Assembly (NCBI RefSeq): GCF_003610555.1
Contig: NZ_RAPQ01000009.1
Span: 372,001 to 436,000, forward strand
DNA length: 64,000 nucleotides
Reading direction: 5' to 3'
DNA from: Marinifilum flexuosum
Lineage (GTDB): Bacteria > Bacteroidota > Bacteroidia > Bacteroidales > Marinifilaceae
This document shows positions 39,998-61,738 of the stretch, in pieces (positions within the stretch are counted from its first letter, which is position 1; each line of letters opens with the position of its first letter). The position numbers were made by a program, and so were the translations under genes. Below the pieces are notes generated by a model. It was not told the DNA's origin. It saw only the letters and a program-made list of their open reading frames with translations, and ran no database searches.

Positions 39998-40048
39998 ACA
40001 ATTTATTAAAACAGAAAAATCAGTATTACTGATAAAAACTAAAAACAA

Positions 40049-40759: not shown

Positions 40760-40852
40760 TTAAAGTTGTTTATTAAATGATTAAGATACAAGCATTATTA
40801 ATGCTGAAAACTTACTATCTGGCAGATAGCTACAGAACAATTTTCAACGAAA

Positions 40853-40882
40853 AAACTCGCTCTTCTTTCGAAGAGCGAGTTT
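40853..40882. terminator. Bidirectional intrinsic terminator
   Basis: A perfect 13-bp stem (40853-40865 with 40870-40882) has a four-base loop, with an A-run before it and Ts after it. It serves the converging genes at 40759 (+) and 40955 (-). Confidence 0.88.
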
Positions 40883-40954
40883 AATCGCTAATAATAGAAC
40901 TAGATGTTCTGCTTTTATGGAAATTAATGCAAAGGTTTAATCAAACATTGATGA

Positions 40955-41677
40955 TTAAAAACCAATACCTAAAATTAGGTTCGCAGTTTCTGCTTGTGGG
41001 TTAATCGCAACTTTAGCCCAAGCATTTAAAGAAAAACTCTCTGTAATTTTAATCTCTCTGGTAGCTGTAGCTCCGATATTTACAAAACCAAAACTCTCAC
41101 CATAAACCTGATCTTCGAAAGCATTTAAGCCTGCGAATAAAGAAATCTTTTCTCCACCAATGGTTACTGGATATCCAAACTCAACGTAAGTTGAATAGTT
41201 TTGGTCACCATTCTCATCTAAATCGCGACCATAAAGCATAGTGCTTACCGAAAGACTTAAAGGAAATTTCTCAGTAAAATAGAAGTTAAAACTTGCATCA
41301 ATCAAGTGATTCGTTGTAGCTCTATCTAAATCAAGATAGTTGTAATCATCAATTGAAGCTCTATCGCGGTTTGCAAATAAGTCCCAAACTGCTATGTTAA
41401 AATGATCGTTAAACTTATATCCTACATGAAAATCGAACTCTGAATATGTATTATCGAATGCATATCCACCCCATGCACCAAAAGTAAAGTTGTTATTGGT
41501 ATAAGCAAGGTCCATTTCGAAATTGGCAGTGTTACTTACCATGATACCTCTCCAGTAATGGCGAGTGGTTACCGATGGACTAACTGTTACTTTTCCTTGT
41601 GCATTTACGTTCATATTCGACGCAAATAATATTATAAGAGTAAATAATACTGATAGTTTTAAAACTGATTTTTTCAT
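40955..41677 (-). CDS. TorF-like outer membrane protein next to glpF
   Basis: The protein has 240 residues with a signal peptide of about 26 residues (NMNVNAQ). The start of the mature protein (GKVTVSPSVTTRHYWRGIMVSNTANFEMDLAYTNNNFTFGAWGGYAF) is like the TorF / CHP02001 putative porins. Strands alternate to a C-terminal Phe (LILGIGF). It lies 165 bases downstream of glpF on the same strand and ends the glpD - glpK - glpF run, so it may pass glycerol or a related small solute across the outer membrane. Substrate is an inference from position only. Confidence 0.65.
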   Translation of the reverse strand: MKKSVLKLSVLFTLIILFASNMNVNAQGKVTVSPSVTTRHYWRGIMVSNTANFEMDLAYTNNNFTFGAWGGYAFDNTYSEFDFHVGYKFNDHFNIAVWDLFANRDRASIDDYNYLDLDRATTNHLIDASFNFYFTEKFPLSLSVSTMLYGRDLDENGDQNYSTYVEFGYPVTIGGEKISLFAGLNAFEDQVYGESFGFVNIGATATREIKITESFSLNAWAKVAINPQAETANLILGIGF

Positions 41678-41842
41678 TAGATTAATATTTTATGGGCTGT
41701 AGAGATCCTGAAGGTCTCAATTTCAAGATCTCCACAGGGTTTAAAAATGTAGTCGTGTTATTTAATTCTAAGCGTAGCTTAGATCTACTATCGAAAACCT
41801 TTCAAGCATAAACTTGTTATTGGCAGATAGCTTTAGGTTTAT

Positions 41843-42577
41843 TTATAAGCTCATAAACAAGAAGGCTGCAACTGCTGCTCCTACGATAGGTGCAATAACC
41901 GGAACCAAAGAGTATCCCCAGTCGCTACCACCTTTGTTGTTCATAGGAAGAATAGCATGCATAATTCTTGGACCAAGATCTCTTGCTGGGTTAATCGCAT
42001 AACCAGTAGTTCCTCCTAAAGAAAGTCCAATAGCAACTACTAACAGAGCAACTGGCAAAGCACCTAAAGTACCCAATCCAACCTTGGCACCCTCAACACC
42101 AGCAGCTTCGAAAGAAGGACCTGCCAAATAGAAGATTACAAACATCAATACAAATGTTCCGATAACTTCGCTGATTACATTGCTTCCAAAGTTACGGATA
42201 GCAGGACCAGTAGAGAAACATGCTAATTTCGCTCCACCATCTTCAGTAGAATTAAAGTGATCGCGATACATTAACCACACAAGGAATGCTCCGAATGCAG
42301 CTCCTGCCATTTGAGCAACGATAAAAAGACCTACCTTTGACCATGCAAACATACCTGCTAACGCCAATCCTACGGTTACAGCGGGGTTAATATGAGCTCC
42401 AGAAATTGGGCCTGCAACAGCTACTGCTGTAAATACTGCTAATCCCCATCCCATTGTGATTACGATCCAACCACTGTTATTTCCTTTGGTATTATTCAAT
42501 ACAACGTTTGCAACTACTCCATTACCTAAAAGGATTAGTAACATTGTTCCTATAAATTCTGCAATAAATTCACTCAT
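41843..42577 (-). CDS. glpF: Glycerol uptake facilitator (MIP/aquaporin family)
   Basis: The protein has 244 residues with six transmembrane helices and the two half-helix NPA motifs at about 64-66 (GAHINPAVT) and 196-198 (GYAINPARD). The Asp after the second NPA-Arg is a feature of glycerol-conducting members. It passively conducts glycerol across the inner membrane, where GlpK traps it as glycerol-3-phosphate. The gene is 149 bases downstream of glpK1, in the usual glpK-glpF pairing. Confidence 0.95.
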   Translation of the reverse strand: MSEFIAEFIGTMLLILLGNGVVANVVLNNTKGNNSGWIVITMGWGLAVFTAVAVAGPISGAHINPAVTVGLALAGMFAWSKVGLFIVAQMAGAAFGAFLVWLMYRDHFNSTEDGGAKLACFSTGPAIRNFGSNVISEVIGTFVLMFVIFYLAGPSFEAAGVEGAKVGLGTLGALPVALLVVAIGLSLGGTTGYAINPARDLGPRIMHAILPMNNKGGSDWGYSLVPVIAPIVGAAVAAFLFMSL

Positions 42578-42726
42578 GACTTTATGGTTTATTTAGTAAT
42601 TGTTAATAAAAGAATGCCGGAATCCATTCTCCTTCCGTTCCTTCATCTCATTTCCGGCATTGGTTTAAAAATATTAAACCCGAGATCAATCCTACCAACC
42701 AATCTCAGGTTGTTAGATATTGAAAA

Positions 42727-44226
42727 TTAAGCTTCTGTATCCCAATCTTTCGAACGACCAAGGGCTTTATCCCAACCTTTAATCATCTTCTCAGATTTTT
42801 CTTTAGGCATTTCTGGCTCGAACTTGCGATCCATTGCCCACTGGCTTTTAATTTCATCAACACTATCCCAATATCCAACTGCTAAACCTGCCAAGTATGC
42901 AGCACCTAGTGCAGTAGTTTCAAGAGTTTTCGGGCGATAAACTGGTGCATCTAATACATCCGACTGGAATTGCATTAATAAGTTGTTAATTGCAGCACCA
43001 CCATCAACACGTAATTCGTTAATTTCTATTCCAGCATCAGCTTCCATAGCTTTCAATACGTCTCTGGTTTGGAAAGCGATACCTTCTAAAGCAGCTCTTG
43101 CGATATGAGCAGAAGTTGATCCTCTTGTTAAACCAACAATTGTACCTCTTGCATACTGATCCCAATGTGGAGCTCCTAAACCTGTTAATGCAGGCACAAG
43201 GAATACACCCCCATTATCTTCTACCGAACCAGCCAATTCTTCTACTTCCGGAGACGACTTGATAATTCCTAATCCATCGCGTAACCATTGTACAATAGCT
43301 CCTCCCATGAAAATACTTCCTTCCAAACAGTAAGTAGTTTCACCATTAATTTGCCATCCAATGGTAGTTAATAAGTTGTTGTTTGATTTTACTGGCGTAG
43401 TTCCGGTATTACAAAGCATGAAACATCCTGTTCCATATGTGTTCTTCACCGAACCTGGCTTAATACACATCTGGCCGAAAGTAGCAGCTTGCTGGTCACC
43501 TGCAATACCCGCGATAGGTACCTCGTGAGCGAAAAGAGTAGTTACCGTATGTCCATATACTTCTGAAGAAGATTTAACCTCAGGAAGAATACTGGCAGGA
43601 ATGTCAAGAAGTTCCAACATATCCTTATCCCACTCCAAAGTTTTGATGTTGTATAGTAAAGTTCTACTTGCGTTGGTAACATCTGTTACGTGTACTTTTC
43701 CTTGAGTCAATTTCCAGATTAACCAGCTATCGATAGTACCAAATGCCAATTTACCTGCTTCTGCTTTTTCGCGAGCTCCTTCAACATTATCGAGAATCCA
43801 CTTTACTTTAGTTCCCGAGAAGTAAGAATCGATAATCAAACCAGTCTTATCCTGAATCATATCAGCATGACCTTGTGCTTTTAATTCATCGCAGTATTTA
43901 GATGTACGACGATCTTGCCAAACGATTGCGTTGTAAATTGGTTCGTTGGTTTCGCGGTCCCAAACAACTGTTGTCTCTCTCTGGTTAGTGATACCAATCC
44001 CCGCGATGTTTTTACCGTTAGCTCCAGCCTGAGTAATCGCTTCAGCTGCTACACCTGCTTGTGTAGACCAAATCTCGTTCGCATCATGCTCTACCCATCC
44101 TGGCTGAGGGAATATTTGGGTAAATTCCTTCTGTGCCACGCTCACCATCTCGCCTTTTTTGTTGAAAACGATTGCTCTCGAACTTGTAGTTCCCTGGTCT
44201 AAAGCTAAAATAAACTTGTCTTCCAT
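42727..44226 (-). CDS. glpK: Glycerol kinase
   Basis: The protein has 499 residues, the normal FGGY glycerol kinase length. The phosphate loop [10 protein letters not shown] is canonical (residues 9-18). The substrate site NQRET (Arg-Glu pair) and the GDQQAA motif with its catalytic Asp are present, as is the nucleotide motif [11 protein letters not shown] with Asp-Gly-Gly intact. It converts glycerol and ATP to glycerol-3-phosphate. It lies between glpD (345 bases upstream) and glpF. The second glycerol kinase in this window (51337-52833) has lost several of these residues, so this copy is the likely main enzyme. Confidence 0.96.
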
Positions 44227-44292
44227 AATTCAATTAATTTGGGTTATTGTGTTATTAAAATTATAGTCTTTCCGAGTACTCAATTGCTATTA

Positions 44293-44307
44293 TTTACAAA
44301 TTGTAAA
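44293..44307. promoter_or_regulatory. Palindrome upstream of glpK
   Basis: TTTACAA-A-TTGTAAA is a perfect 15-bp palindrome 66 bases before the glpK start, a possible operator. It shares TTACAA with the dyad at the padR promoter, but its half-site spacing differs. Confidence 0.4.
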
Positions 44308-44422
44308 CGATTGCAATTTTGCGATAAAAAATTTTTAATCCTTCGGATTAAACGCACAAATCCATATTTATACAGATTTGATTAGGGTTTTAGGTAGTAT
44401 TTAACACATCACATTAAATAGA

Positions 44423-44569
44423 AAATGTAGGACTATGCGAGCAAGGCAATATCGTGCCAAAACTAACAAATTGATTAATAATATTGTAACAATTAATAAA
44501 ATCAGTAGTTATAAATAACAGACTAAGAACTACCTTTAATAAAACTCTTGCTCAATTTGTCCTACATTT
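44423..44569. repeat. 147-bp element with imperfect terminal inverted repeats
   Basis: The 23-bp ends 44423-44445 and 44547-44569 are inverted repeats with 18 matches: 11-bp and 7-bp blocks either side of a five-base mismatch (AAATGTAGGAC, GAGCAAG). They enclose 101 AT-rich bases, and the right end abuts the glpD stop codon. This could be a MITE-like remnant or a large stem-loop in the glpD-glpK message. No target duplication or transposase is visible. Confidence 0.4.
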
Positions 44570-44571
44570 CT

Positions 44572-46134
44572 TTATTTCAATATGTACTGGGCTGCCAAAT
44601 CATTAAATTTATTTATCTGATCATCCTCCCATTGTTTATCGTATTTAAGCTCTTTTGCCATTAATTCAGCAACTTTTGGAGCCATTCTAACACTTTCTTT
44701 TGCATCAAGAAGTAAAGCCCTGGTTCTACGCGATAAAAAATCTTCTACCGTCCTGGCCATTTCATTTCTGACTGCCCAAACAACCTGTGCGTTCAATACT
44801 TGAAGCTCTTCACTTAAATATTCGTTTAAGCCATTTTCTTGCTTTGCCAAATCCAAAATCTTCTCCTCATCCGAGCCATAGAAATACATCGGATTGCTTA
44901 AATCCGGATTTTCTTTATATCCGTGAATTCGTAAGTTTCTTGTTACTGATTTTTTTTGTTCCAAACCGGCAGTCTTAGCAACAGTATTCATTACATCTTC
45001 AGCCATTTGGCGATAGGTTGTCCATTTTCCACCTGTTAAAGTCACCATACCTGATTCAGATACAACAATCTTATGTCCTCTTGAAATCTCTTTGGTCTTC
45101 GCCCCATCTTGAGTTGGAGCTGCTAAAGGTCTTAATCCAGCAAATACACTTCTTACATCTGATCTTTTAGGTGGTTTTTCAAGGAACCTACCTGCAGTTT
45201 CCAATATAAAATCAACTTCCTCTTCCAACGCCTTCGGTTCTAGTTCTGCTTTATCTTTGTGTACATCAGTAGTACCAACCACTACTTTGTTGTGCCATGG
45301 TACTGCAAATAACACACGGCCATCACTTGTTTTAGGAATCATTACAGCATAGTCGCCAGGAACAAATTCCTTATCCAATACCAAGTGAACACCCTGACTC
45401 ACCCTTACGATATCTTTCGCTTTAGGTTCGTCCATTTTGATAATTTCATCAACAAAAACGCCTGTGGCATTTAAAACAGCCTCTCCTTCAATGGTATAAG
45501 TTTCATTATTTTCAAGGTCAGTAGCCTTTACTGCAGTGATTTTGCCATTATTTTTAACCACTCCAGTAACTTTCATATAATTGATAGCCACTCCTCCATT
45601 TTCTACAAATGTTTGACACATGTTTATTGCCAATCGGGAGTCATCAAACTGTCCATCATGATAAACTACTCCACCACTAAGCTTTTCACTTTTAAGAGTT
45701 GGTATGTATTTAAGTGTTCTTTTCTTTGAAAATGGTAAAGATCTTCCATAACCTAACTTTCCTGCCATTAAATCATAGAGAGTTAATCCTAAAGTATAAT
45801 ATGGAGTTCCCCACCAAGTATAATTTGGAATAATAAAGGATTGATCTTTTACCAAGTGAGGAGCATTCTTTTTTAATAAGCCTCTCTCACGTAAAGCTTC
45901 AAGAACCAATGAGATATTTCCTTGAGCAAGATATCTTACGCCACCATGAACCAATTTTGTACTTCTGCTTGAAGTACCTTTAGCGAAATCATCCTGTTCA
46001 AGAAGAAGGGTTTTGTAACCACGTGTCGAAGACTCAATGGCTGCGCCCAACCCCGATGCACCACCACCAACAATAATCACATCCCATTTCTGTTTTGCAC
46101 TCTTAACTTCTCTAAGCATCTTTCCTCTATCCAT
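44572..46134 (-). CDS. glpD: Glycerol-3-phosphate dehydrogenase, FAD-dependent
   Basis: With the ATG at 46134 the protein has 520 residues. An in-frame TTG further upstream would overlap the small gene before it and is unlikely. The Rossmann FAD motif is VIIVGGGASGLGAAIESS (about residues 18-35), followed by LLLEQDDFAKGTSSRSTKLVHGGVRYL, the hallmark of the GlpD/GlpA family. A DAO-type oxidase fold follows, and a C-terminal helical domain begins near 420. It oxidises sn-glycerol-3-phosphate to dihydroxyacetone phosphate and passes electrons to quinone at the inner membrane. It starts 23 bases after the 48-codon gene at 46158-46304, which is probably its operon leader gene. Confidence 0.93.
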   Translation of the reverse strand: MDRGKMLREVKSAKQKWDVIIVGGGASGLGAAIESSTRGYKTLLLEQDDFAKGTSSRSTKLVHGGVRYLAQGNISLVLEALRERGLLKKNAPHLVKDQSFIIPNYTWWGTPYYTLGLTLYDLMAGKLGYGRSLPFSKKRTLKYIPTLKSEKLSGGVVYHDGQFDDSRLAINMCQTFVENGGVAINYMKVTGVVKNNGKITAVKATDLENNETYTIEGEAVLNATGVFVDEIIKMDEPKAKDIVRVSQGVHLVLDKEFVPGDYAVMIPKTSDGRVLFAVPWHNKVVVGTTDVHKDKAELEPKALEEEVDFILETAGRFLEKPPKRSDVRSVFAGLRPLAAPTQDGAKTKEISRGHKIVVSESGMVTLTGGKWTTYRQMAEDVMNTVAKTAGLEQKKSVTRNLRIHGYKENPDLSNPMYFYGSDEEKILDLAKQENGLNEYLSEELQVLNAQVVWAVRNEMARTVEDFLSRRTRALLLDAKESVRMAPKVAELMAKELKYDKQWEDDQINKFNDLAAQYILK

Positions 46135-46157
46135 GACTGCACAACCTATTGATTCTT

Positions 46158-46304
46158 CTACAATTCTTTTTCCCAATACTCCCAAATACTTCCTTTCGCT
46201 TCTTCTTCATCCTGAGTAGCCAATTCTTTTTGTCCAGACAAAATGTCTAAGAAAAAAGAATAAAGGCGATTTCCCATTTGCATATCAAATCTTACATCTT
46301 CCAT
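46158..46304 (-). CDS. 48-aa small protein, member of a two-copy family (leads glpD)
   Basis: A 49-codon frame from ATG 46304 to a TAG at 46158 gives a 48-residue acidic protein. The N-terminal part (MEDVRFDMQ ... LYSFF) and the end (SIWEYWEKEL) match the equally long protein at 50873-51019: 20 of 48 residues are identical and no gap is needed. Both genes carry the same type of promoter and leader and each precedes a glycerol-phosphate gene. The conserved pattern is DVxFD, LY-S/T-FF and SIW-E/D-Y/F-WExEL. There is no signal peptide or membrane segment. It may be a leader peptide, an adaptor or a regulator of the enzymes; I know of no family. Confidence 0.75.
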   Translation of the reverse strand: MEDVRFDMQMGNRLYSFFLDILSGQKELATQDEEEAKGSIWEYWEKEL

Positions 46305-46431
46305 AGTAGTATTAAAATATAAATCTGAATACACAGTACATTGCTTTGCTATGTACCTTTATCAAAAAAAACGGAAGCATTCTTCCTATCAATTACCAAG
46401 TTTAATAAAGTTGTTTCAAACTTGATACTTA

Positions 46432-46484
46432 CAAAGCTAAATAAAATACTTAGTATTGCAAGGTGTTTTGCAAAGAAATAGTCT
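46432..46484 (-). promoter_or_regulatory. Promoter with dyad operator of the small-protein - glpD unit
   Basis: The minus strand carries TAGCTTTG (46432-46439, a TAnnTTTG -7 box) and a TTG (46459-46461), 19 bases apart. The second half-site dyad TTGCAAGGTGTTTTGCAA (46456-46473) overlaps the -33 region. The block aligns with that at the padR promoter (TTACAAGATATCTTGCAA) with shared flanks TAGT and ATAGTCT. A conserved leader dyad, TACAT-N9-ATGTA, is at 46337-46355, 33 bases before the start codon. Confidence 0.65.
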
Positions 46485-46586
46485 GTTTTAATTTAGTCTA
46501 AAATACAAAAACCTCACACAAAGACTATTTTTACTGATAAAGGAGAGTATCAGTATTTTTGAAAGATCAAAGAAAAAAAAATAAAA

Positions 46587-46620
46587 AAAGAGACCTATTT
46601 CACTTAGAAATGGTCTCTTT
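46587..46620 (-). terminator. Intrinsic terminator, second of two after the porin gene
   Basis: A 9-bp outer stem (46587-46595 with 46612-46620) and a 4-bp inner stem are present, with a U-run on the minus strand. With the hairpin at 46676-46706 it isolates the small-protein - glpD unit from the porin gene. Confidence 0.8.
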
Positions 46621-46675
46621 TAATTAAAAAAATCTATTTAAACAGGTCTGATATTTCCCTTAGATTTTATACAGA

Positions 46676-46706
46676 AAAACTTGCTTAATTATAGCAAGCA
46701 AGTTTT
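46676..46706 (-). terminator. Intrinsic terminator of the porin gene
   Basis: A 10-bp stem (46676-46685 with 46697-46706), 22 bases after the porin stop at 46728. The U-run on the minus strand is short, which may be why a second terminator follows. Confidence 0.7.
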
Positions 46707-46727
46707 TCCTATATAATATGTAATCTC

Positions 46728-48068
46728 TTAAAAATTAACTTGAATTCTTCCTTTAAGAACTCCAATGTTTTTATCTAATGGGTGTTTCTGATTATCAACA
46801 TCCATATAGTCATAATTCAAGCGGAACATTACATTAGAACTTACGTAGTAATTTACAGCCAAGCTATAAGTATCAGCTTTTCCACCTTGAATACTCATGT
46901 TACCAGCTCCACCCAAAGCAGCATTTAAATCTGCAGGACCATAAGCTCCGTTAAAATAAGTACCATCAATATCGTTCAAATCTGTATGATCGTAACGAAC
47001 AAGGAATTCAAAAGCACCAGCTTTAGGTCTTTTAATGTATGCAGTTGATGAGTTGTACTTGTAGTTGTCTCCTAATAAGAACCCAGCTTGTACATAGTAT
47101 GCTTTGGTTTCGATATCACGAAGCTCACCATACCAATCAGGATAATCCTGAGGTTTTACAGGCCATGCATAAGTAACGTAATACAATGGACCGTCTTTCA
47201 TTAATCTTGACACATAATCATCATCACGAGTTACTTTTGCTTGAGTATATTCAGCTTGTAACATGAAAGGGCCTTTTAATGCCAAAGTTTGGAAGTTAAA
47301 TCTCATATCAGACTGTGCTCCATTCATTGTAGCATTTAAAAATTTGTGTTCAGGACCAGCTGCAAATTCAACTACACGATTGTAATCATCATCGTTAAAA
47401 CTTTCGTTAAAACCATTAGCTTCAGGCTTTCTATAGGTAAATGATCCTCCTACCTGGAATACGAAATCATCGTTTTGAATTGGAGTATAAGCAACTTTAG
47501 AAGTCGTAGAAAAACCTTGATCACCTTTACTGTTATTATCAACAGAACCAGCAAAAATACCAGTTGAACCATAGAATTTCTGAGTATAGTAAGTATATCC
47601 CAAACCTACTCCACGACCAATACCCATAGCTTGAGTTGTATTGGAAGCACCAATAAATCTAAGGTTTTTGCTTGATTCAGCAGCCTCAATTCCGAATGGC
47701 TCAAAGAAGTTACCCACGGTAAAAGTACTGTTCTTTTTGTGGTGATATCTTAAAAATGCATCCTTAATTTTCACTTCATCATTACCAAAACCAACATTCA
47801 CTTTAGCGCTCCACTTTCCCCATCTTACGCTTGTTCCGAAGCGAATATCACTTACTGAAACATCAGAACTTAAATCAGTAACATCATCGAAATAATGTAC
47901 ACCATCCATGTAAATTCTACCATTAATACTTACCTGGTATTCTTTATCAGCAGAAGTCAATTTAATTCCTCCATTCGAATTATCTACTGAAATTTTATTT
48001 TCCTGAGCATTTGCTCCTGAAGCTAACACTCCCGTTAATAAGGCAGCTATATATAATTTTTTAAACAT
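46728..48068 (-). CDS. Porin O/P family outer membrane protein (phosphate- or phosphodiester-type channel)
   Basis: The protein has 446 residues with a signal peptide of about 21 residues (SGANAQ). The mature start (VDNSNGGIKLTSADKEYQVSINGRIYMDGVHYFDD) and the WSAKVNVGFGNDEVKIKDAFLRY segment are typical of the OprO/OprP family (Porin_O_P). The protein ends in Phe (RIQVNF). OprO/P members favour phosphate or polyphosphate anions. Its place after glpT and the GDPD gene suggests entry of glycerophosphodiesters or G3P. The gene starts 36 bases after the GDPD stop, so they form one unit, closed by two terminators. Confidence 0.82.
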   Translation of the reverse strand: MFKKLYIAALLTGVLASGANAQENKISVDNSNGGIKLTSADKEYQVSINGRIYMDGVHYFDDVTDLSSDVSVSDIRFGTSVRWGKWSAKVNVGFGNDEVKIKDAFLRYHHKKNSTFTVGNFFEPFGIEAAESSKNLRFIGASNTTQAMGIGRGVGLGYTYYTQKFYGSTGIFAGSVDNNSKGDQGFSTTSKVAYTPIQNDDFVFQVGGSFTYRKPEANGFNESFNDDDYNRVVEFAAGPEHKFLNATMNGAQSDMRFNFQTLALKGPFMLQAEYTQAKVTRDDDYVSRLMKDGPLYYVTYAWPVKPQDYPDWYGELRDIETKAYYVQAGFLLGDNYKYNSSTAYIKRPKAGAFEFLVRYDHTDLNDIDGTYFNGAYGPADLNAALGGAGNMSIQGGKADTYSLAVNYYVSSNVMFRLNYDYMDVDNQKHPLDKNIGVLKGRIQVNF

Positions 48069-48104
48069 ATTACTTTTGCTTAATAATTTGTAAATAGAAA
48101 TTGA

Positions 48105-49415
48105 TTAGTATCCTAAAGCGTCTAATACTTCTTGAGCAGTACCAACTACTTCACGCTTCTGGTAATTCATAGAAAGGTCTGTTAAGTTCGTAAATCCACC
48201 ATCGATAAACATGTTTGAGTTTACATCGTAATTAAAGTTTCCTTGTACAGTTCTATTTGGGTCTTCGAAACGTGATACTCCACCGTAAAAGTAATCTCCA
48301 TTATACTTTCTTAATTGATCTTCAGTATCGAATGAGTATGCATGAACAAGCATTCCAGCTCTGTGATACATTTCACACATCCATGGTTCTGTAAGGTCTG
48401 GATATTTATTAGGCTTACCTTCGATTGAAGGACCTGCAATATGACAATTGTACTCTACTGAGAAATTAATGAATTCAGCTAAAGACTCAATTGTATTAGA
48501 TGGTCTTACATATGAAGCACTTTCATCTTCCCATAATAACATACATTTTGGTACACCTGGTAATTCTTTTTCAAGATTAACGATTGATTGTCTTGAAAAA
48601 GACTGTAAAATGAATCGTCCATTTGTGTTCGCTACATCAACTTTTCCTGGGGTTGTAGGAATTGTTTTTGGAGAAGCAGTAACATTCCATCCTTCAGCAG
48701 TTAAGAATTTTGCCAAGTCACCTTCCATTCCTGAGAACAGGTAAGGCTCTTTGGTTTCTGCATAAACACCTGGGCGGTTACCATTGTCTTGTGGGTCCAC
48801 TTCAAATTCATAATATCCTACCCATTCACCAGCTTCATTAAGTCTGGTCATATCTTTTACAGGCTCACCATTTACATCTCTTTTGATTCTGAATCCTTCT
48901 GCAATTTTCATTACTTCTTCAAGAGTAGAAATTTTCTCTCCTACAAATGCCTCTCTTGCATTTTCTGGTACATCAACATTAAACCAAGCACCTGCATCAA
49001 GTTTTCTCAATTCAGCCAATGTAAAGTAACTTACTGGATAATCTTCTTTACCTGGGAAAACACTCTCAATATTTGATGTTCTTCTTAAGTTATTATCATG
49101 AAGAGCTAACAAAACACCATCTTTTGTTCTTTGTAAATCAATTTCAAGATAATCTGCACCCATATTTCTTGCCCAACGGAAAGCTGCTTCTGTTTCTTCC
49201 GGAGCCCAGAAAGTTGACCCTCTGTGTGCAATCACGATATCTTTCTTAACGTAATCTCTAACTATCTTAGCTTCTGCACTTAATTCTTTAAGTGGATAAG
49301 TTTTGTAGTAGTTAAATTCATTGTAATCTGGTGTATCATCTTCACACCCTGCTAAGCCTATAGAACATAAGGCCATCGCACCTAATAATAGGTTCTTAAG
49401 ATTAAATTTTTCCAT
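48105..49415 (-). CDS. glpQ: Glycerophosphodiester phosphodiesterase lipoprotein
   Basis: The protein has 436 residues with a lipoprotein signal (SIGLAGCEDD, Cys at residue 24). The GDPD TIM barrel begins DIVIAHRG with His64 and Arg65, then Glu91 and Asp93 in YLEIDLQRTKDG, then His106-Asp107 in LALHDNN; these are the metal and catalytic residues of the family. It cleaves glycerophosphodiesters to G3P and an alcohol at the cell surface or in the periplasm. An insertion of roughly 90 residues follows the first barrel half, longer than in E. coli GlpQ. It lies between glpT (57 bases upstream) and the porin gene, so product and transporter are encoded together. Confidence 0.9.
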   Translation of the reverse strand: MEKFNLKNLLLGAMALCSIGLAGCEDDTPDYNEFNYYKTYPLKELSAEAKIVRDYVKKDIVIAHRGSTFWAPEETEAAFRWARNMGADYLEIDLQRTKDGVLLALHDNNLRRTSNIESVFPGKEDYPVSYFTLAELRKLDAGAWFNVDVPENAREAFVGEKISTLEEVMKIAEGFRIKRDVNGEPVKDMTRLNEAGEWVGYYEFEVDPQDNGNRPGVYAETKEPYLFSGMEGDLAKFLTAEGWNVTASPKTIPTTPGKVDVANTNGRFILQSFSRQSIVNLEKELPGVPKCMLLWEDESASYVRPSNTIESLAEFINFSVEYNCHIAGPSIEGKPNKYPDLTEPWMCEMYHRAGMLVHAYSFDTEDQLRKYNGDYFYGGVSRFEDPNRTVQGNFNYDVNSNMFIDGGFTNLTDLSMNYQKREVVGTAQEVLDALGY

Positions 49416-49472
49416 ATTATTTAAATTTTGAAGGTTAATTTCTATTTATGATTAAATCTTTACTTCCGAATT

Positions 49473-50810
49473 TTAATGATGAATTCCATTGTGTCCTCTT
49501 ATTTCTTGTATCCACGAAACGGCAATAAAAAGAATCGATAACACACAAGCTCCAAGAAGAACCATAAATCCACCTGTCCAACTCCATTTGTCAACAACCG
49601 CGCCCATTGCAATATTTGCAAAAAGAGCACCTCCCATATATCCAAACAAGCCAGTTAAACCAGCAGCTGTACCAGCAGCTTTTTTAGGTACCAAATCAAG
49701 AGCATGAACACCAATAAGCATTACCGGACCATAGATTAAGAAACCAATACATACTAATGCGATTGAATTTGCTACAATAGAGTCACTAGTCCAGTACATG
49801 AATACTGAGACAGTTACAAGCACCATATAAATAATACTTACAGGAGCACGTTTCCCCTTAAATACACTATCACTTAAATATCCACACAAAAGAGTTCCAG
49901 GTATTCCTGCCCATTCGTAAGCAAAATATGCCCAACCAGTTTCTTCAATAGAGAAGCCTTTAGCCTCTTCAAGGTATAATGGAGCCCAATCTAAAACACC
50001 GTAACGTACCAGATAAACAAAAGCATTTGCGATTGCAATCATCCACAAAAGTCTGTTCTTAAGAATGTATTCAAGAAAAATTTGCTTTGCAGACATTTCT
50101 TCTTCAAACTTTTCTGAATATGAATCAGGATAATCATCTTTATATTTTTCGATGTTTGGTAAACCACATGATTGAGGTGTATCTCTTATTAATAGCCAGG
50201 CTATAAATGCAACAAGCAATGCTACCAAGCCAGGGAAATACAATTTGGCCTGCCAGTCAACAAAAATTGCTACACCTAAAATTGCCAAAGGACCAATAAT
50301 ACCTCCACCAACATTATGAGCTACATTCCAAACAGACATTTTTGTTCCACGCTCTCGAATAGAGAACCAATGCACCATTACACGGCCACAAGGAGGCCAT
50401 CCCATTCCCTGAAACCATCCGTTCAATAATAAAAGAACAAACATGATGGCTATTGACGATGTTGCAACTGGCAGTATCCCCATAGCAATCATTGTAATTG
50501 CTGACAATACCAACCCAAGAGTTAAGAAACGACGAGCATTACTTCTATCCGAAACATTACCCATTATGAACTTACTCAATCCATATGCAATAGATACTCC
50601 TGATAATGCAAATCCTAACTCAGTTTTAGAATATCCCAAATTCACCAAATCAGGCATTGCTAATGAGAATACCTTTCTAACAAGGTAATAACCTGCATAC
50701 CCCAAGAATATCCCTAAAAACACTTGCAGACGCAATCGTTTGTAAACTGGGTCAATTTTGTTCTCAGGCAGCATCTCTTTATGAGCAGCTGGCTTTAAAA
50801 ATCCAATCAT
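49473..50810 (-). CDS. glpT: Glycerol-3-phosphate transporter (MFS, OPA family)
   Basis: The protein has 445 residues with 12 predicted transmembrane helices. The [17 protein letters not shown] start of helix 1 is the organophosphate:Pi antiporter signature, with the Arg that helps bind the phosphate. [26 protein letters not shown] and [20 protein letters not shown] continue the GlpT/UhpT pattern. It exchanges G3P for inorganic phosphate. It is preceded by the 48-codon gene at 50873-51019 (62 bases) and followed by the GDPD gene (57 bases), so these probably form one operon. Confidence 0.92.
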
Positions 50811-50872
50811 TTTAAAATAAATTTATGGTTATTGTAATTTTGAATATTATTATTTCCTACACGTGTATTATT

Positions 50873-51019
50873 TTATAACTCACACTCCCAGAAATCCCAA
50901 ATACTTTTATAAACAGCATTTTCATGTTTTATTGATATACTTTTATTCGAGTCAATTATCTCTGAAAAAAATGTATATAAACAATCCTCTAGTTGTTCAT
51001 CAAATTTGACATCTTTCAT
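50873..51019 (-). CDS. 48-aa small protein, member of a two-copy family (leads glpT)
   Basis: A 49-codon frame from ATG 51019 to a TAA at 50873 gives a 48-residue protein (MKDVKFDEQ ... LYTFF ... SIWDFWECEL) that aligns without gaps to the protein at 46158-46304, with 20 identities in 48. The conserved FD-x-Q, LYxFF and SIWxxWExEL residues fall in the same register. There is no signal or membrane segment, and it is acidic. It is too short to have been called as a gene by normal cut-offs. Identical length and conserved register over two diverged copies argue for a translated, selected protein. It lies 62 bases before glpT. Confidence 0.75.
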   Translation of the reverse strand: MKDVKFDEQLEDCLYTFFSEIIDSNKSISIKHENAVYKSIWDFWECEL

Positions 51020-51153
51020 AGTAGCATTGAAAAATAAATCCTAATACAAAGCACATTGCTTAACTATGTATATAGTGTAAAAAAAATGTTCACTCCAAAT
51101 CTCTAAATTAACTTTTATTACCCGTATGTTAATTTAACACTAGGTGAATGCGA

Positions 51154-51195
51154 CAAAACTAAATAAAATACTTAGCAATGCAATGTGCATAGTTA
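51154..51195 (-). promoter_or_regulatory. Promoter of the small-protein - glpT unit
   Basis: On the minus strand TAGTTTTG (51154-51161, TAnnTTTG) is 19 bases from a TTG (51181-51183), the same spacing as at the glpD-side promoter, with shared flanking bases. A dyad ATGCA-N3-TGCAT (51178-51190) overlaps the -33 region. The leader dyad CACAT-N9-ATGTA (51052-51070) is again 33 bases before the start codon. Confidence 0.65.
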
Positions 51196-51282
51196 AAAAA
51201 GATACTATTTATAACTATTCCAAAATACCTTACCATCATAACAACCTATACTACAAATCAATACATATATCTAAAAAAAAAT

Positions 51283-51318
51283 AAAAAGGGTCATTTCAAA
51301 TATGAAATAACCCTTTTT
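51283..51318 (-). terminator. Intrinsic terminator of the padR-glpK2 unit
   Basis: A 9-bp outer and a 6-bp inner stem (51283-51298 with 51303-51318, one mismatch) have a four-base loop and a U-run on the minus strand. It is 19 bases after the glpK2 stop at 51337. Confidence 0.88.
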
Positions 51319-51336
51319 ATTTTTAATTATACTTTT

Positions 51337-52833
51337 TTATTCATCCGCATCTATCCAATTTTGAGATCTGCTAACAGCCTTCTCCCAATATTTTTTATGA
51401 TGCTTCACTATTTCTTCATCCATTTTCACTTCATATTCTTTGTCCAGTTTCCAATGATCTTGGATCTCTTCTACACTATTCCAAAACCCTACACCTAAAC
51501 CAGCCAAATAAGCTGCTCCAACAGCGGTAATTTCTTTAATTTCCGGTCGTACAATTGGTATACCTAAAAAATCGGCTTGATATTGAAGCAAGGTATCGTT
51601 TGCCATTAATCCTCCACCCCTTAATTGCTCTACTTTTATACCAGAGTCAGCCTCCATGGTTTTCAAAACATCAGATGATCGATGAGCGATACATTCTAAC
51701 GATGCACGCGCAATATGTCCAATGCTAGTGCCCATATTTAATCCCCAGAAAGTACCTCTTGCATATTGATCCCAGTAAGGTGCGCCTAATCCAGTAAAAG
51801 AAGGAACAATGTAAACTCCTCCATTATCTTTTTCCGTTAGTGCAAGTAATTCAATTTCCTCAATGGAGTGTATTAGGTTTAAACTATCGCGTAACCATTG
51901 CACTACAGCTCCTCCAATAAAAACACTCCCTTCCAATGCATAGGTAGGTTTATCACCAATTCCCCAGGCTATTGTCGTAATCAAATCGTTTTTTGACTCT
52001 ACAGGCTCATCACCTGTATTCATCAACATAAAACATCCTGTATTGTAGGTGTTTTTCACCATCCCTTTTTCGAAACACGCTTGTCCAAAAAGTGCTGCCT
52101 GCTGATCACCACAAATCCCGGAAATTGGAATCTCCTCACCAAACATTGACCTGCGTGTATGTCCATAAATCTCACTAGATGAGCAAACTTTTGGAAGAAT
52201 TGATTCCGGAATATCAAGTAGTTCCAACAATTCTTTATCCCAACACAAGTCATAGATATTATAAAGCATTGTACGACTGGCATTCGAAACATCTGTAATA
52301 TGAAGCTCTCCTTTGGTCAACTTCCAAATCAACCAGCTATCAACAGTTCCAAATGCAAGCTTACCCTGCTCTGCTTTTTCTCTGGCTCCTTCAATATTAT
52401 TTAGTAACCACTGTATTTTAGTTGCAGAAAAGAAGGCATCTAAAATCAGTCCTGTCTTCTCTTTGATCTTTTGTGAATATCCTTGCTCCTTTAATTTATC
52501 ACAAAGGTGTGATGTTCTTCTATCCTGCCAAACTATTGCATTGTTAATTGGTTCTCCTGTTTCTCTATCCCAAATAATTGTTGTTTCTCTTTGGTTGGTG
52601 ATCCCAATACCTGCAATATCTTTTCCTGTCAGTCCGGTTTTTGTCAATACCTCCTCAGCCACTGATGCCTGTGAATACCAAATTTCCTTGGCATCTTGCT
52701 CAATCCAACCTGGCTTAGGATAATATTGCTCATATTCTTTCTGAACTTGAGCAATTATTTCGCCTTTCTTATTAAATAAAATAGCTTTTGAAATTGACGT
52801 CCCTTGATCTAAGGATAAAATATAATCTCTCAT
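51337..52833 (-). CDS. Second, diverged glycerol kinase paralogue
   Basis: The start ATG 52833 gives 498 residues and MRDYILSLDQGTSISKA, aligned with the main GlpK. An ATG 21 bases earlier is possible but less like the family. The NQRET and GDQQAA motifs that hold glycerol and the catalytic base are kept. The phosphate loop is changed from QGTTSSRA to QGTSISKA, and the nucleotide motif VDGG-A is changed to GGG-L with loss of Asp and one residue (LRGGGLMANDTLL). The fold is otherwise intact over the full length, so it is not a decayed gene. It lies 30 bases after padR and forms a separate unit from glpK1. It may have altered nucleotide affinity, a different substrate or a regulatory role. Confidence 0.8.
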   Translation of the reverse strand: MRDYILSLDQGTSISKAILFNKKGEIIAQVQKEYEQYYPKPGWIEQDAKEIWYSQASVAEEVLTKTGLTGKDIAGIGITNQRETTIIWDRETGEPINNAIVWQDRRTSHLCDKLKEQGYSQKIKEKTGLILDAFFSATKIQWLLNNIEGAREKAEQGKLAFGTVDSWLIWKLTKGELHITDVSNASRTMLYNIYDLCWDKELLELLDIPESILPKVCSSSEIYGHTRRSMFGEEIPISGICGDQQAALFGQACFEKGMVKNTYNTGCFMLMNTGDEPVESKNDLITTIAWGIGDKPTYALEGSVFIGGAVVQWLRDSLNLIHSIEEIELLALTEKDNGGVYIVPSFTGLGAPYWDQYARGTFWGLNMGTSIGHIARASLECIAHRSSDVLKTMEADSGIKVEQLRGGGLMANDTLLQYQADFLGIPIVRPEIKEITAVGAAYLAGLGVGFWNSVEEIQDHWKLDKEYEVKMDEEIVKHHKKYWEKAVSRSQNWIDADE

Positions 52834-52863
52834 TCCTCTGGTAATTAATTGCATTTAACAGTT

Positions 52864-53217
52864 TTACGCATTCTCCTTTATCCTTGTGATAGATAGATTT
52901 AAGGAATCCACATACTCTCGCATAATTTCCAAGTGCGAAGCACCTTCTTTAGTAAGTTTGTAGTATTTTCTTGGAATACCTGTATCCATTTCCGCCCACT
53001 CTGAAGTAACCAACTTCTCTTTCTTAAGTCGATTCAATAGCGGATAAATTGTACCTTCCGCAATTTCCAGGGAAGTAAATTGATTCATTTCACTAATTAA
53101 TTCGTAACCATAACATGGTTTCGATCTTAGCAACAGGAGGATAATGTATTCCAACAGTCCCTTTTTAAATTGAGACTTCCATTTTGTTATAAAGTATTCG
53201 TTGATTTCGTGATTCAT
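52864..53217 (-). CDS. PadR family transcriptional regulator
   Basis: The protein has 117 residues. The PadR winged helix is clear: LEYIILLLLRSKPCYGYELISEMNQFTSLEIAEGTIYPLLNRLKKEKLV, then TSEWAEMDTGIPRKYYKLTKEG for the wing. A C-terminal helix supports dimerisation. PadR proteins are usually repressors of nearby genes that respond to a small ligand. It is co-directional with glpK2 (30 bases to the ATG at 52833), and a dyad overlapping its own -33 box suggests autoregulation. The same type of dyad is present at the glpD-side promoter and partly at the glpT-side one, so it may control the whole glycerol-3-phosphate region. Confidence 0.92.
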   Translation of the reverse strand: MNHEINEYFITKWKSQFKKGLLEYIILLLLRSKPCYGYELISEMNQFTSLEIAEGTIYPLLNRLKKEKLVTSEWAEMDTGIPRKYYKLTKEGASHLEIMREYVDSLNLSITRIKENA

Positions 53218-53224
53218 GGTGTAA

Positions 53225-53280
53225 CAAACATATAAAAAAATACATAGTTTTACAAGATATCTTGCAAGAGTATAGTCTTA
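53225..53280 (-). promoter_or_regulatory. padR promoter with operator-like dyad
   Basis: On the minus strand, TATGTTTG (53225-53232) matches TAnnTTTG and lies about 20 bases from a TTG within the dyad TTACAAGATATCTTGCAA (53250-53267; core CAAGATATCTTG, 53253-53264, perfect). The start codon at 53217 follows the -7 box so closely that the mRNA has almost no leader. Confidence 0.65.
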
Positions 53281-53313
53281 AGGTGTACAAGGATTTTCCA
53301 AAATATATGCTAA

Positions 53314-55509
53314 CTACTTAATAGATACCTCTACTCTGAATTTTGGCTTTTTTTGTTGATCAGAAAGATTTCTTAAATCTGCAGTTTTTACAATAAAATT
53401 ATCCTGAGGAACTTGCAAACTATCCAATAAGTAACTCGTTATTTCTTTATTCCTCTCTTTAATCAGTGAATCAAGCATTTGATTAGCTTTCACATTACCT
53501 ATTTTTTCAAAACAAAGTTCTACCAAACTTTTTGACACTTCTGTACTATCCTTAACAAGATAATTTCTAAACTCTGAAGATTGATTTGCCCAATTTTCTA
53601 ATTTCTTACTTTTCAAATTTGGCATTTCTTCAGACCTTGATTTAAAGTAATCATTAACACAATCTTCAAGAATCAAATAATTCCGTTCTTGTTTGGTATC
53701 TGTTTCTTGTGTAAAAGAGAAGACCAATTCATTCTTCTTCTGTAAGATCTCTGAAATATCTTTTAAAGTTGATTTTTCTTTATCATCAAGTGAAACACTC
53801 GTATAATTTAATTGAATTGTTTCAATATCTTCAGGGTTTGTACCAGTGATACTTCCAAGAATACCAAATGGTTTAGCTGCAGTCTTTACCAGGAAATTCA
53901 TTAAAGTTTTCCAAATAATCCTACCCAGCTTAAAATCTGGTTCATTTGGGTTACCTGATACTGGTAAATCGAATTGAATGATATCATTTTGATCTTTTAG
54001 TAGATACAGTGCTAATCTAACCGGCGCCTTTATTGTGTTTGGATCCTTTGTCTTCTTACCAAAATCAAACTCAGAAATTTTAATATTATTTTGATTATCC
54101 ATATGATCTGGCTTCATATCAATACTACAATGGTAATTAAAGGTTCCTTGGGTTATAGGTCTTGCGATGTAGAATTCTGTATATGGAGAAAAACTCATCA
54201 ATTCCAATCCGGTAAGTCTTGCTCTTAAATTAAAATCGTGAACTTCCTGCAAATTGAAATTCAAGCTTCCTTTCAACTTTCCTCCTCCATTTAAGTTCAT
54301 CGAATAACTTAAAGGCACATTATCTGAAGTTTCCGTTAGTCTACCAAGATTCAGAGCAATGTCTTTAATATCGTAAACAAAGTCACGATTTAAAGTTTTA
54401 TCGGAAAATTGCAACAAACCACCTTTAACAATTACGCTATCAATAGCATAAAATAAGGCCTGATCCTGCTTTAAAGAATCTTGCTCAACTTTGGCTAATT
54501 CAGCTGTATCAACAATCATTACAGGTTCGAATATCCTTTCAAAATTGGTATTCTCTTTAAAAAGAGTAGCATAAATTTCAGGCTCTTCCATTACAATCTT
54601 TCCAATTTCGTATTGTGATGTACCAATGTTTAATGAATCGAGATTTACATTTGTTGATTTTGCAGCAAGAAATCTTTTGCCTTCCAAATCATTTAATGAA
54701 AAATCCTGCAAGCTGGTACTTCCTTTAACAAATACATCCATAAAATCGATCATGCTTCCATTAATTTTTAGAGACGTATTCATTTTCCCCTCCATACTTG
54801 AGATCTTTATATAATCCTTAATATAAGCCATAAAAGGTTTAATATTGATATCTGTAACCTTTAAGTCAATCATATACCTTTCGGTAGCATGATCTACATT
54901 TGCATTTATACCAACATTACCTTCTCCTCCTATGGAAAAATCTACTCCCATTTCCGACTTCTGATTGTCCCAAGCAATCAATGGTAGGTCCAGATTTATA
55001 TTTTTTAAATCAAGTAAATTGTCCTTCTGCTTATCAAAGTATGCGATGTAGCCATTTTTTATTTCAATATCATATATAGAAAATTTAGTGGTTTTGCTCT
55101 CTTGATTAGCCTGAACTGTGTCAGGTATTTCTTCTTCGCTAACCAACAAATCATCAAAATTGAATCCAACACTATCTTGAATAATTGACACATTTAATCC
55201 ATCCAAGTAAATTTGCGAAACCGAATATTCACCAGAAATCAACTTCCAGGGCGAAATATTAACATACAATTCGTTGAATGATACAAATTGATCGGCATCA
55301 TTACTTTCATACAAACATAATCCATTCACCCGAACCGATACTTCCGCATAATTAAAGTGTAATTCTGCAATTTCTAGCTTTCTTCCGATAAGTTCTTCAG
55401 AATGATTAACAAGGTAGTTTTTCACTATTGTTGATAGGAAAAAGAATAACAATATAATTACCGTAAGTATCGACAATAATATGATCTTCTTTTTGGATAA
55501 TCGTTTCAT
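53314..55509 (-). CDS. DUF748 (AsmA-like) envelope protein
   Basis: The protein has 731 residues. A single N-terminal membrane anchor lies at about 10-29 (IILLSILTVIILLFFFLSTIV). A long repetitive beta-strand region follows, of the AsmA/DUF748 type (ELIGRKLEIAELHFNYAEVSVRVNGL, VNISPWKLISGEYSVSQIYLDGLN). Such proteins form long grooves in the periplasm that are linked to lipid movement or outer membrane integrity. The Porin-like final part contains NLQEVHDFNLRARLTGLELMSFSPY and a C-terminal helical tail from about residue 610. It is a single-gene unit; the following MscS gene lies upstream on the same strand. Confidence 0.8.
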   Translation of the reverse strand: MKRLSKKKIILLSILTVIILLFFFLSTIVKNYLVNHSEELIGRKLEIAELHFNYAEVSVRVNGLCLYESNDADQFVSFNELYVNISPWKLISGEYSVSQIYLDGLNVSIIQDSVGFNFDDLLVSEEEIPDTVQANQESKTTKFSIYDIEIKNGYIAYFDKQKDNLLDLKNINLDLPLIAWDNQKSEMGVDFSIGGEGNVGINANVDHATERYMIDLKVTDINIKPFMAYIKDYIKISSMEGKMNTSLKINGSMIDFMDVFVKGSTSLQDFSLNDLEGKRFLAAKSTNVNLDSLNIGTSQYEIGKIVMEEPEIYATLFKENTNFERIFEPVMIVDTAELAKVEQDSLKQDQALFYAIDSVIVKGGLLQFSDKTLNRDFVYDIKDIALNLGRLTETSDNVPLSYSMNLNGGGKLKGSLNFNLQEVHDFNLRARLTGLELMSFSPYTEFYIARPITQGTFNYHCSIDMKPDHMDNQNNIKISEFDFGKKTKDPNTIKAPVRLALYLLKDQNDIIQFDLPVSGNPNEPDFKLGRIIWKTLMNFLVKTAAKPFGILGSITGTNPEDIETIQLNYTSVSLDDKEKSTLKDISEILQKKNELVFSFTQETDTKQERNYLILEDCVNDYFKSRSEEMPNLKSKKLENWANQSSEFRNYLVKDSTEVSKSLVELCFEKIGNVKANQMLDSLIKERNKEITSYLLDSLQVPQDNFIVKTADLRNLSDQQKKPKFRVEVSIK

Positions 55510-55589
55510 ACTTCTTATTTAATTTGATATATCAAAACTAACAATTAGTTTATGATTTATTAAGCCTCCTTCAAATTTTCGATAAAAAA

Positions 55590-55607
55590 AGGAGGCTTTT
55601 GCCTCCT
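55590..55607 (-). terminator. Intrinsic terminator of the mscS gene
   Basis: A perfect 7-bp GC-rich stem (55590-55596 with 55601-55607) has a TTTT loop and a seven-U tail on the minus strand. A competing longer hairpin joins the same left arm sequence to 55562-55571. Confidence 0.85.
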
Positions 55608-55629
55608 CCTCATTTTTTAAACCAGATTA

Positions 55630-56451
55630 TTAATGATTATAAACGTGAATATCTCTTTGCGGGAAAGGAATTCCAATATCGTTCTTATCAAACTCCTTCT
55701 TCACAGTTTCTTGCATGTAAAAGAATACTTCCCAGTAATCTGCCGCATTCACCCATGCTCTTACTGTGAAATTCACCGAACTATCAGCTAACTCTAAAAC
55801 TGCAATAAAATGCACAGGATCTTTTAACACCTTGGGATGATTGGCTAATAATCCTTCAAGAATTCCTTTTGCTTTGTCAATATCATCAGAATAACCAATT
55901 CCAAATGTCATATCGACTCTTCGAGTAGATTGAGTTGAATAATTAATCATTGATCCGGTAGACAAACCTCCATTAGGAATAATAATGGTTTTATTATCGA
56001 GCGAAAGTAAAATGGTGTTGAATAGCTGAATTTCCTTAACTACACCAAGGTAGCCTTGCGCTTCTAACAAATCTCCAACCTTAAATGGCTTAAATATAAG
56101 GATCATAACTCCTCCTGCAAAGTTTTGCAATGTTCCCGATAAAGCCATTCCCACTGCCAAACCTGCAGCACCTAAAATTGCAATAAAGGAAGTCATCTGT
56201 ACACCAACCATTCCTACAACAGCAATGAAAAGCATAATCTTTAGCAAAATGGAAAGCATACTAACAATGAATGGTTTTAAAGTAGGATCCAATTCATTCT
56301 TATCCATCAATTTCGCAATTCCCTTGGTTATCATTTTAACAATCCATAAACCGATTATCAACGTAAGAATAGCCAACAATAATTTTGGCGCATATTCCAA
56401 AGCCATTGTCCACAATTGATCCGATTTCTCAAACATTTTATTCAAATCCAT
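55630..56451 (-). CDS. Small-conductance mechanosensitive channel (MscS family)
   Basis: The protein has 273 residues with an N-terminal transmembrane region of three helices. The pore helix is AILGAAGLAVGMALSGTLQNFAGGVMILIFKPFKVGDLLEA, the classic MscS signature with Gly/Ala packing. The cytoplasmic beta domain has LLSLDNKTIIIPNGGLSTGSMINYSTQSTRRVDMTFGIGY, and the C-terminal alpha/beta domain ends in FPQRDIHVYNH. It opens on hypo-osmotic shock to release solutes at the inner membrane. The length equals the short E. coli MscS type. It is a single-gene unit, closed by a terminator. Confidence 0.95.
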   Translation of the reverse strand: MDLNKMFEKSDQLWTMALEYAPKLLLAILTLIIGLWIVKMITKGIAKLMDKNELDPTLKPFIVSMLSILLKIMLFIAVVGMVGVQMTSFIAILGAAGLAVGMALSGTLQNFAGGVMILIFKPFKVGDLLEAQGYLGVVKEIQLFNTILLSLDNKTIIIPNGGLSTGSMINYSTQSTRRVDMTFGIGYSDDIDKAKGILEGLLANHPKVLKDPVHFIAVLELADSSVNFTVRAWVNAADYWEVFFYMQETVKKEFDKNDIGIPFPQRDIHVYNH

Positions 56452-61717: not shown

Positions 61718-61738
61718 AGACGTAGCGATGCTACGTCT
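61718..61738. repeat. REP-like palindrome AGACGTAGC-GAT-GCTACGTCT
   Basis: Perfect 9-bp arms with a three-base centre, between two converging genes. It ends GTCTCTACA, like the palindrome at 39972-39997. This type of small palindrome is common between Bacteroidota genes. Confidence 0.55.

Follow-up and report, generated by a model that had tools for sequence, protein, structure and literature searches.

What are the short frames that head two glycerol-phosphate units of Marinifilum flexuosum, and what might they do there? The window analyzed here is a stretch of 64,000 nucleotides (nt) of this genome (contig NZ_RAPQ01000009.1, positions 372,001 to 436,000), in which one small open reading frame (sORF) of 48 codons precedes glpD and another precedes glpT. 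In these frames and their relatives, we find coding selection, linkage to glycerol-phosphate (glp) genes, a leader architecture common to the units, and damage to some of the copies. sORF1 and sORF2 encode protein. They represent a real protein family, apparently undescribed, that is known so far from close relatives only.

Two paralogous frames under protein-level selection

The original prediction had named two frames of 48 codons plus a stop. Both are present, reading from 46304 to 46158 and from 51019 to 50873; the prediction had given no strand, and the plus-strand reading of both is interrupted by stops.

46158..46304, minus strand: sORF1 (protein P0001), 48 amino acids (aa), before glpD; supported by translation, orthologues before glpD and a codon model
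50873..51019, minus strand: sORF2 (protein P0002), 48 aa, paralogue of sORF1 before glpT; supported by translation and a genome search

The two proteins align without gaps at 20 of 48 identities, as predicted, and the ungapped BLOSUM62 score of 114 stands against -41 +/- 15 in 20,000 shuffles, the largest of which reached 25. Searching the 5.17-Mb genome with P0001 (E-values up to 10) returned two places only, at 2.1e-28 and 3.8e-8, and no third copy. Frames of 48 codons should be within reach of ordinary gene callers.

Selection on a protein, which the prediction had read from the two copies, is borne out, and a non-coding substitution pattern is contradicted. The ratio of nonsynonymous to synonymous substitution rates (dN/dS, omega) is 0.13 for 13 distinct copy-1 (sORF1) sequences and 0.15 once three copy-2 (sORF2) sequences join them. 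The log-likelihood (lnL) for copy 1 is -745.0 with omega free and -794.2 with omega at 1; the tree was re-estimated for each model (MG, kappa 1), so the gap of about 49 units is indicative and not a formal nested test. Both copies of strain D714, copy 2 of M. fragile and identical sequences were left out of the dN/dS, codon-model and tree calculations.

Pairwise comparisons add detail; the G and L numbers of genomes and loci used below, like the genus names g2, g10 and g12, are working labels. Between M. flexuosum and M. breve, all seven changed codons of copy 1 are synonymous, with every change at a third position; the synonymous share is 10 of 12 between M. flexuosum and M. caeruleilacunae, 8 of 10 between M. 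breve and M. caeruleilacunae, and 8 of 20 between M. flexuosum and G030. L. filiforme gives 6 of 9 against L. euxinus and 13 of 18 against the metagenome-assembled genome (MAG) MAG11, and L. euxinus gives 6 of 9 against G031. Within genus g2, G009 and G006 differ by synonymous changes in 7 of 7 codons of the glpD-type frame and 8 of 10 of the porin-type frame, and G005 and G009 in 3 of 18. Copy 2 looks less constrained than copy 1 (9 of 28 synonymous between M. flexuosum and G040). The sole indel among intact main-clade copies is a whole codon (G040_c1, 47 aa).

A family confined to close relatives

We searched for known families and for relatives elsewhere. No match to the sORF1 and sORF2 proteins was found in Pfam or NCBIfam (E up to 10), to 16 family members in Pfam (E up to 1), or to the family profile in the PDB (E up to 10), which agrees with the earlier statement that no family was known for them. 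A profile built from the genus copies found strong relatives (E < 1e-9) in 16 of the 56 genomes of the GTDB family, rising to 20 of 56 once genus g2 was added; weak matches in G018 (E 0.016, containing a stop) and G007 (0.0033) were left uncounted. glpD itself is present in 33 of these 56 genomes (E up to 1e-100). All 20 family genomes that have a GlpD of at least 71% identity carry a sORF immediately ahead of a glpD; in the 13 whose GlpD is only 54-59% identical, no credible sORF was found (best E 0.016, with internal stops). When up to 500 nt ahead of glpD were scanned with the profile, 18 of the 20 clade-type loci fetched gave a match, and each of the two without one was the first glpD of a pair (in G006 and in G009). 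There was no match in 10 distant-type loci of the family, for one of which the scan covered only 309 nt, or in 23 loci of other families of the order, where the leader dyad described below is absent as well. The second glpD of G049 (51% identical) has no sORF beside it. A separate scan of named genomes returned 12 loci, from Marinifilum, Labilibaculum and one Marinifilaceae MAG.

The expectation of homologues near glycerol genes in other Bacteroidota thus held within one GTDB family and failed across the wider samples: no credible relative was found in 393 genomes of the order (best E 0.0025) or 395 of the class (four weak hits, best E 0.0052), and since at most 17 candidates were scored in most of these genomes, very diverged relatives could be missed. 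The 29 fetched order-level loci of weak matches have no glp gene alongside, and the g2 protein was not found in viral contigs. In the samples searched, its members have so far turned up only in Marinifilum, Labilibaculum and nearby genera, all within one GTDB family. No account of this protein family was found in the open-access literature (titles and abstract openings, among the matches listed).

Gene neighborhood and paralogues

sORF1 heads a glpD unit and sORF2 a glpT-gdpd-porin unit, in accordance with the prediction; the stop of sORF1 lies 23 nt from the glpD ATG (46134) and that of sORF2 62 nt from the glpT ATG (50810). sORF1-glpD is followed by glpK1 and glpF, and padR and glpK2 stand upstream of the sORF2 unit.

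44572..46134, minus strand: glpD, encoding a FAD-dependent glycerol-3-phosphate dehydrogenase of 520 aa; matches to the NCBIfam glpD models stay under the model cut-offs
46728..48068, minus strand: Porin_O_P outer-membrane porin (PF07396)
48105..49415, minus strand: gdpd, glycerophosphodiester phosphodiesterase (PF03009)
49473..50810, minus strand: glpT, glycerol-3-phosphate transporter (TIGR00712, above cut-off)
51337..52854, minus strand: glpK2, FGGY kinase (PF00370, PF02782), named glpK from its likeness to the second copy
52864..53217, minus strand: PadR-family regulator, 117 aa (PF03551)

The predicted linkage to glp genes needs a distinction: the place before glpD is the common one, and the glpT copy was seen only in five Marinifilum genomes and genus g12. 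The order padR-glpK2-sORF1-glpD-glpK1-glpF is found in the Labilibaculum loci long enough to show it, in genus g10 and in M. caeruleilacunae, which has no glpT-linked copy; in g12 and the other five Marinifilum genomes, glpK2 and sORF1 are separated by an additional block, sORF2-glpT-gdpd-porin. The glpT-linked sORF2 appears to be a lineage-specific paralogue. Its proteins cluster in the tree with support (87/47) too weak to date the duplication.

Genus g2 has the order sORF-glpD-glpT-gdpd, with the porin next in two loci. In three g2 genomes (L169, L170 and L171), a further paralogue heads a second porin unit downstream of the glp cluster; it stands about 250-320 nt before its porin and lacks the two leader dyads, O1 and O2. 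In G006 and G009 (loci L154 and L155), also of g2, about 2.2 kb separates a pair of glpD genes; the leader of the first keeps O1 and O2 and has no recognizable sORF, and the second has a sORF. The glpD-type frame of these two genomes has 49 codons and was aligned as its first 48; intact members otherwise have 47-49 codons, except for the porin-type frame of G008 with 40. The C-terminus differs between clades. Of the conserved motifs in the original prediction, the SIWxxWExEL end is not family-wide, and g2 keeps just the N-terminal RxYxxFSxxL core. The comparison of the g2 and main-set profiles reached 88.5% probability over 16 columns, so their homology rests partly on position.

Some copies are broken. 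Intact frames make up 5 of 6 Marinifilum rows of copy 1 and 4 of 6 Marinifilum/g12 rows of copy 2. In M. fragile, neither the ATG nor the frame of copy 2 survives, and a full-length glpT (97.5 and 98.9% identical, respectively) follows the broken sORF2 in M. fragile and D714. The M. fragile record also splits glpK1 between two frames (L036, 8079-9574), through real damage or an assembly error; given this second frame break, the damage to copy 2 may be an assembly error too.

A common leader with two dyads

The predicted matching position relative to promoters is confirmed: in both leaders, a dyad begins 50 nt before the sORF start codon, below a promoter of the form TTG-N19-TAnnTTTG, which we take to be the Bacteroidota-type consensus.

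46432..46439, minus strand: -7 promoter element TAGCTTTG of the sORF1-glpD unit, matching the consensus TAnnTTTG
51154..51161, minus strand: -7 promoter element TAGTTTTG of the sORF2-glpT unit, matching the same consensus
46448..46464, minus strand: O1 dyad ACCTTG-N5-CTAAGT of the glpD unit, 17 bp, over the promoter spacer (motif scan)
51170..51186, minus strand: O1 dyad ACATTG-N5-CTAAGT of the glpT unit, 17 bp (motif scan)
46338..46354, minus strand: O2 dyad ACATAG-N5-CAATGT in the glpD 5' leader (motif scan)
51053..51069, minus strand: O2 dyad ACATAG-N5-CAATGT in the glpT leader (motif scan)
46373..46386, minus strand: terminator-like hairpin GGAAG-AATG-CTTCC followed by a T-run, glpD leader (leader comparison)
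53242..53258, minus strand: O1-like dyad ATCTTG-N5-CTATGT in the padR promoter (leader comparison)

The TAnnTTTG element, O1 and O2 occur in all 29 glpD- and glpT-type leader rows, which include genomes fetched twice and are not 29 independent cases. O1 begins 25 nt above the first base of TAnnTTTG, and O2 begins 47-61 nt before the sORF start codon. Within the window, the dyad pattern occurs five times against 0.24 expected, four of these in the sORF leaders. The four g2 glpD leaders read keep both dyads, with one change in O2 in two of them. All 23 main-clade glpD-type rows carry the GGAAG...CTTCC hairpin and T-run between O1 and O2, and none of the six glpT-type rows has the hairpin, the T-run alone being kept. 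Considering that the neighboring regulatory DNA is conserved as well, the likeness of the glpD and glpT units is in part regulatory. O2 in the glpD leader could also act as an RNA hairpin. A block like CTGTGTATTCAGATTTA below O2 (46318-46354, minus strand) is conserved between the glpD and glpT leaders and, in some single folds, pairs with the left O2 arm as an alternative hairpin.

An O1-like block occurs in 11 of 15 padR promoter rows, of which 3 meet the scanned pattern; matched by eye, 8 of the 15 have CTAGGT or CCAGGT in place of CTATGT. Four g2 padR promoters (L154-L157) carry a different palindrome, ATCTC...GAGAT. Given these differences between the padR promoters, PadR is a candidate regulator of the leaders.

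Genome-wide, exact ACATAG-N5-CAATGT occurs in the two leaders only. The one-mismatch O2 pattern gave 27 matches against 25 in a reversed control, and a looser ACHTWG pattern 24 against 31; as these counts are not above their controls, no genome-wide O2 regulon is inferred. Strict DNA looping between O1 and O2 is unsupported: the spacing varies from 87 to 129 bp and shows no helical periodicity (over 12 distinct values, the resultant length is 0.28 for a turn of 10.5 bp and 0.23 for one of 11 bp). No consistent RNA structure was seen around the sORF stop and the next start when the 29 rows were folded singly and compared by eye, without a covariation test. An Rfam scan of window positions 40000-56000 gave four matches, all below gathering scores and none over the sORF frames or leaders. 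No account of a conserved double-dyad glp leader was found in the open-access literature, among the matches listed.

Outside the glp cluster, the motif scan also located a perfect dyad, ACGTAGCGATGCTACGT, at 61720-61736. The perfect dyad L148 was set aside; by eye, it is part of a terminator.

Discussion

We tentatively propose, at somewhat less than an even chance, that the sORF protein is a small acidic helical partner or regulator of the pathway that works in trans, with GlpD as its most probable target. Four members have net charges between -7 and -4, which makes the protein acidic. Neither a signal peptide nor a membrane span is visible by eye, and an AlphaFold2 model (helix 8-47, pLDDT 72.9, pTM 0.38) suggests, with modest confidence, that the protein is mainly one helix. 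Encoded first in the glp transcripts, it would appear when the use of glycerol-3-phosphate (G3P) is switched on, if the genes are co-induced as their order suggests, and would then act in trans as a small pathway partner or regulator. GlpD would be its likeliest target, as it follows the sORF in 20 of 20 sORF-bearing family genomes, and the direction of any effect could be either; sORF2 before glpT would be a partly redundant paralogue. We favor action in trans because of this adjacency to glpD in 20 genomes, because a sORF precedes just one of the two glpD genes in G006 and G009, and because full-length glpT persists behind broken copies. The more specific idea, in which the protein made first from a G3P-induced transcript adjusts GlpD (or GlpT) or the regulon repressor directly, is less probable, and we consider it somewhat unlikely.

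Several observations weigh against the proposed partner role. Confidence in the AlphaFold2 model is low, and a single helix is not very informative; in three of four members, the hydrophobic moment does not clearly exceed that of shuffled sequences; and no structural, sequence or literature match points to a target. Some comparisons are poor in synonymous changes, namely 4 of 9 changed codons for copy 1 between M. flexuosum and M. fragile, 5 of 18 for copy 2 between M. flexuosum and M. breve, and 2 of 5 between G005 and G008 of g2. In strain D714, copy 1 is interrupted by a stop at codon 2 and copy 2 by a frameshift; with both copies damaged, this strain may be able to do without the protein. 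Finally, the sORF is the first frame of its transcript, as a cis-acting leader frame would be.

Such a cis-acting leader frame is the main rival, and an unlikely one in our judgment: translation of the frame would set downstream translation or stability, through coupling or a metabolite-sensing nascent peptide, and the peptide would have no role elsewhere. The close placement fits this, with the frame 23-39 nt before glpD or 52-62 nt before glpT in the 29 rows and at a constant place below the conserved O2 block; so do the steady length (the 40-codon frame being the one exception) despite the clade-variable C-terminus, and the conserved residues directly before the stop in the main clade. However, the frame is under amino-acid constraint, the region of the stop and next start shows no consistent RNA structure, and the terminator-like hairpin stands ahead of the frame instead of behind it. 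Full-length glpT stands behind two broken frames, the g2 porin-type frame is far from its porin, and the C-terminal motif is absent from g2. Of the three functions suggested earlier (adaptor, enzyme regulator, leader peptide), a peptide that works by stalling or attenuation has the weakest support, since the frame is followed by no consistent structure and broken copies precede full-length glpT.

The protein might instead act on the transcription factor that reads O1 and O2, with the adjacent PadR as candidate, giving feedback as an anti-repressor or co-repressor. padR-glpK2 lies upstream in the 14 fetched loci long enough to show it, the O1-like block recurs in most padR promoters (11 of 15), and in the 29 leader rows with O1/O2 the sORF comes before any other frame. 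Against this stand the different palindrome of the four g2 padR promoters although g2 glpD keeps O1, the O1/O2 unit without a sORF in G006 and G009, the porin-type sORF of g2 without O1/O2, and the known PadR site, ATGT-N8-10-ACAT (PMC3506622), whereas O2 reads ACAT-N9-ATGT. The ATGT-N8-10-ACAT form is absent from O1 and O2 as read by eye, the leaders not having been scanned for it. The link between PadR and these sites is itself inferred, and we regard this alternative as quite improbable. Least probable by far is that the sORFs are no genes at all, being chance frames that the conservation of regulatory DNA has kept open. In its favor, the leader DNA is likewise conserved, and 3 of the 13 Marinifilum/g12 copies read have a broken frame; yet the low omega (0.13-0.15), the third-position substitutions, the codon-sized indel and the alignment of the paralogues all contradict it.

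If the idea of direct tuning is correct, the sORFs would form a peptide-level feedback loop on glycerol-phosphate flux that arose within one marine Bacteroidota family and was re-used before glpT and porin genes. The family has an unusually firm context, with one pathway, several paralogues and a common leader, which makes a test of function straightforward. The analysis also exposes a conserved double-dyad leader for the glycerol-phosphate genes of the Marinifilum/Labilibaculum group.

Comparison with known systems

Leader peptides of attenuation or stalling systems, such as TnaC and trpL, are short frames in the leader before structural genes, and the sORFs resemble them in this arrangement. 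Unlike them, the sORFs have no run of repeated control codons (by eye), show selection across the frame, and have no consistent hairpin between frame and gene.

Autoregulated PadR operons are described with an operator of the form ATGT-N8-10-ACAT (PMC3506622). The present cluster is similar in containing padR with a dyad in its own promoter; it differs in that the dyad is not of this form and that a link from PadR to the glp leaders is inferred.

In Bacillus subtilis, GlpP acts by antitermination at a terminator in the glpD leader (PMC9604022). The sORF1 unit likewise has a terminator-like hairpin in its glpD leader, and the two systems have glpD, glpF, glpK, glpQ and glpT in common as pathway genes. 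In contrast to the B. subtilis system so described, the glpT leaders here lack the hairpin, and the hairpin of the glpD leader precedes a protein frame. The best match to GlpP (PF04309) in the genome reaches 24.1 bits (E 6.5e-5, over a 41-position stretch), below the 27-bit cut-off.

The GMSC small-protein catalogue reports that more than half of the families with at least three members are genus-specific (PMC11364881). The sORFs are like such lineage-restricted families in being short, conserved, without a Pfam domain and confined to related genera. They differ from the families as presented there in their fixed glp-regulon context, in having paralogues that head different units, and in that their leader architecture is described.

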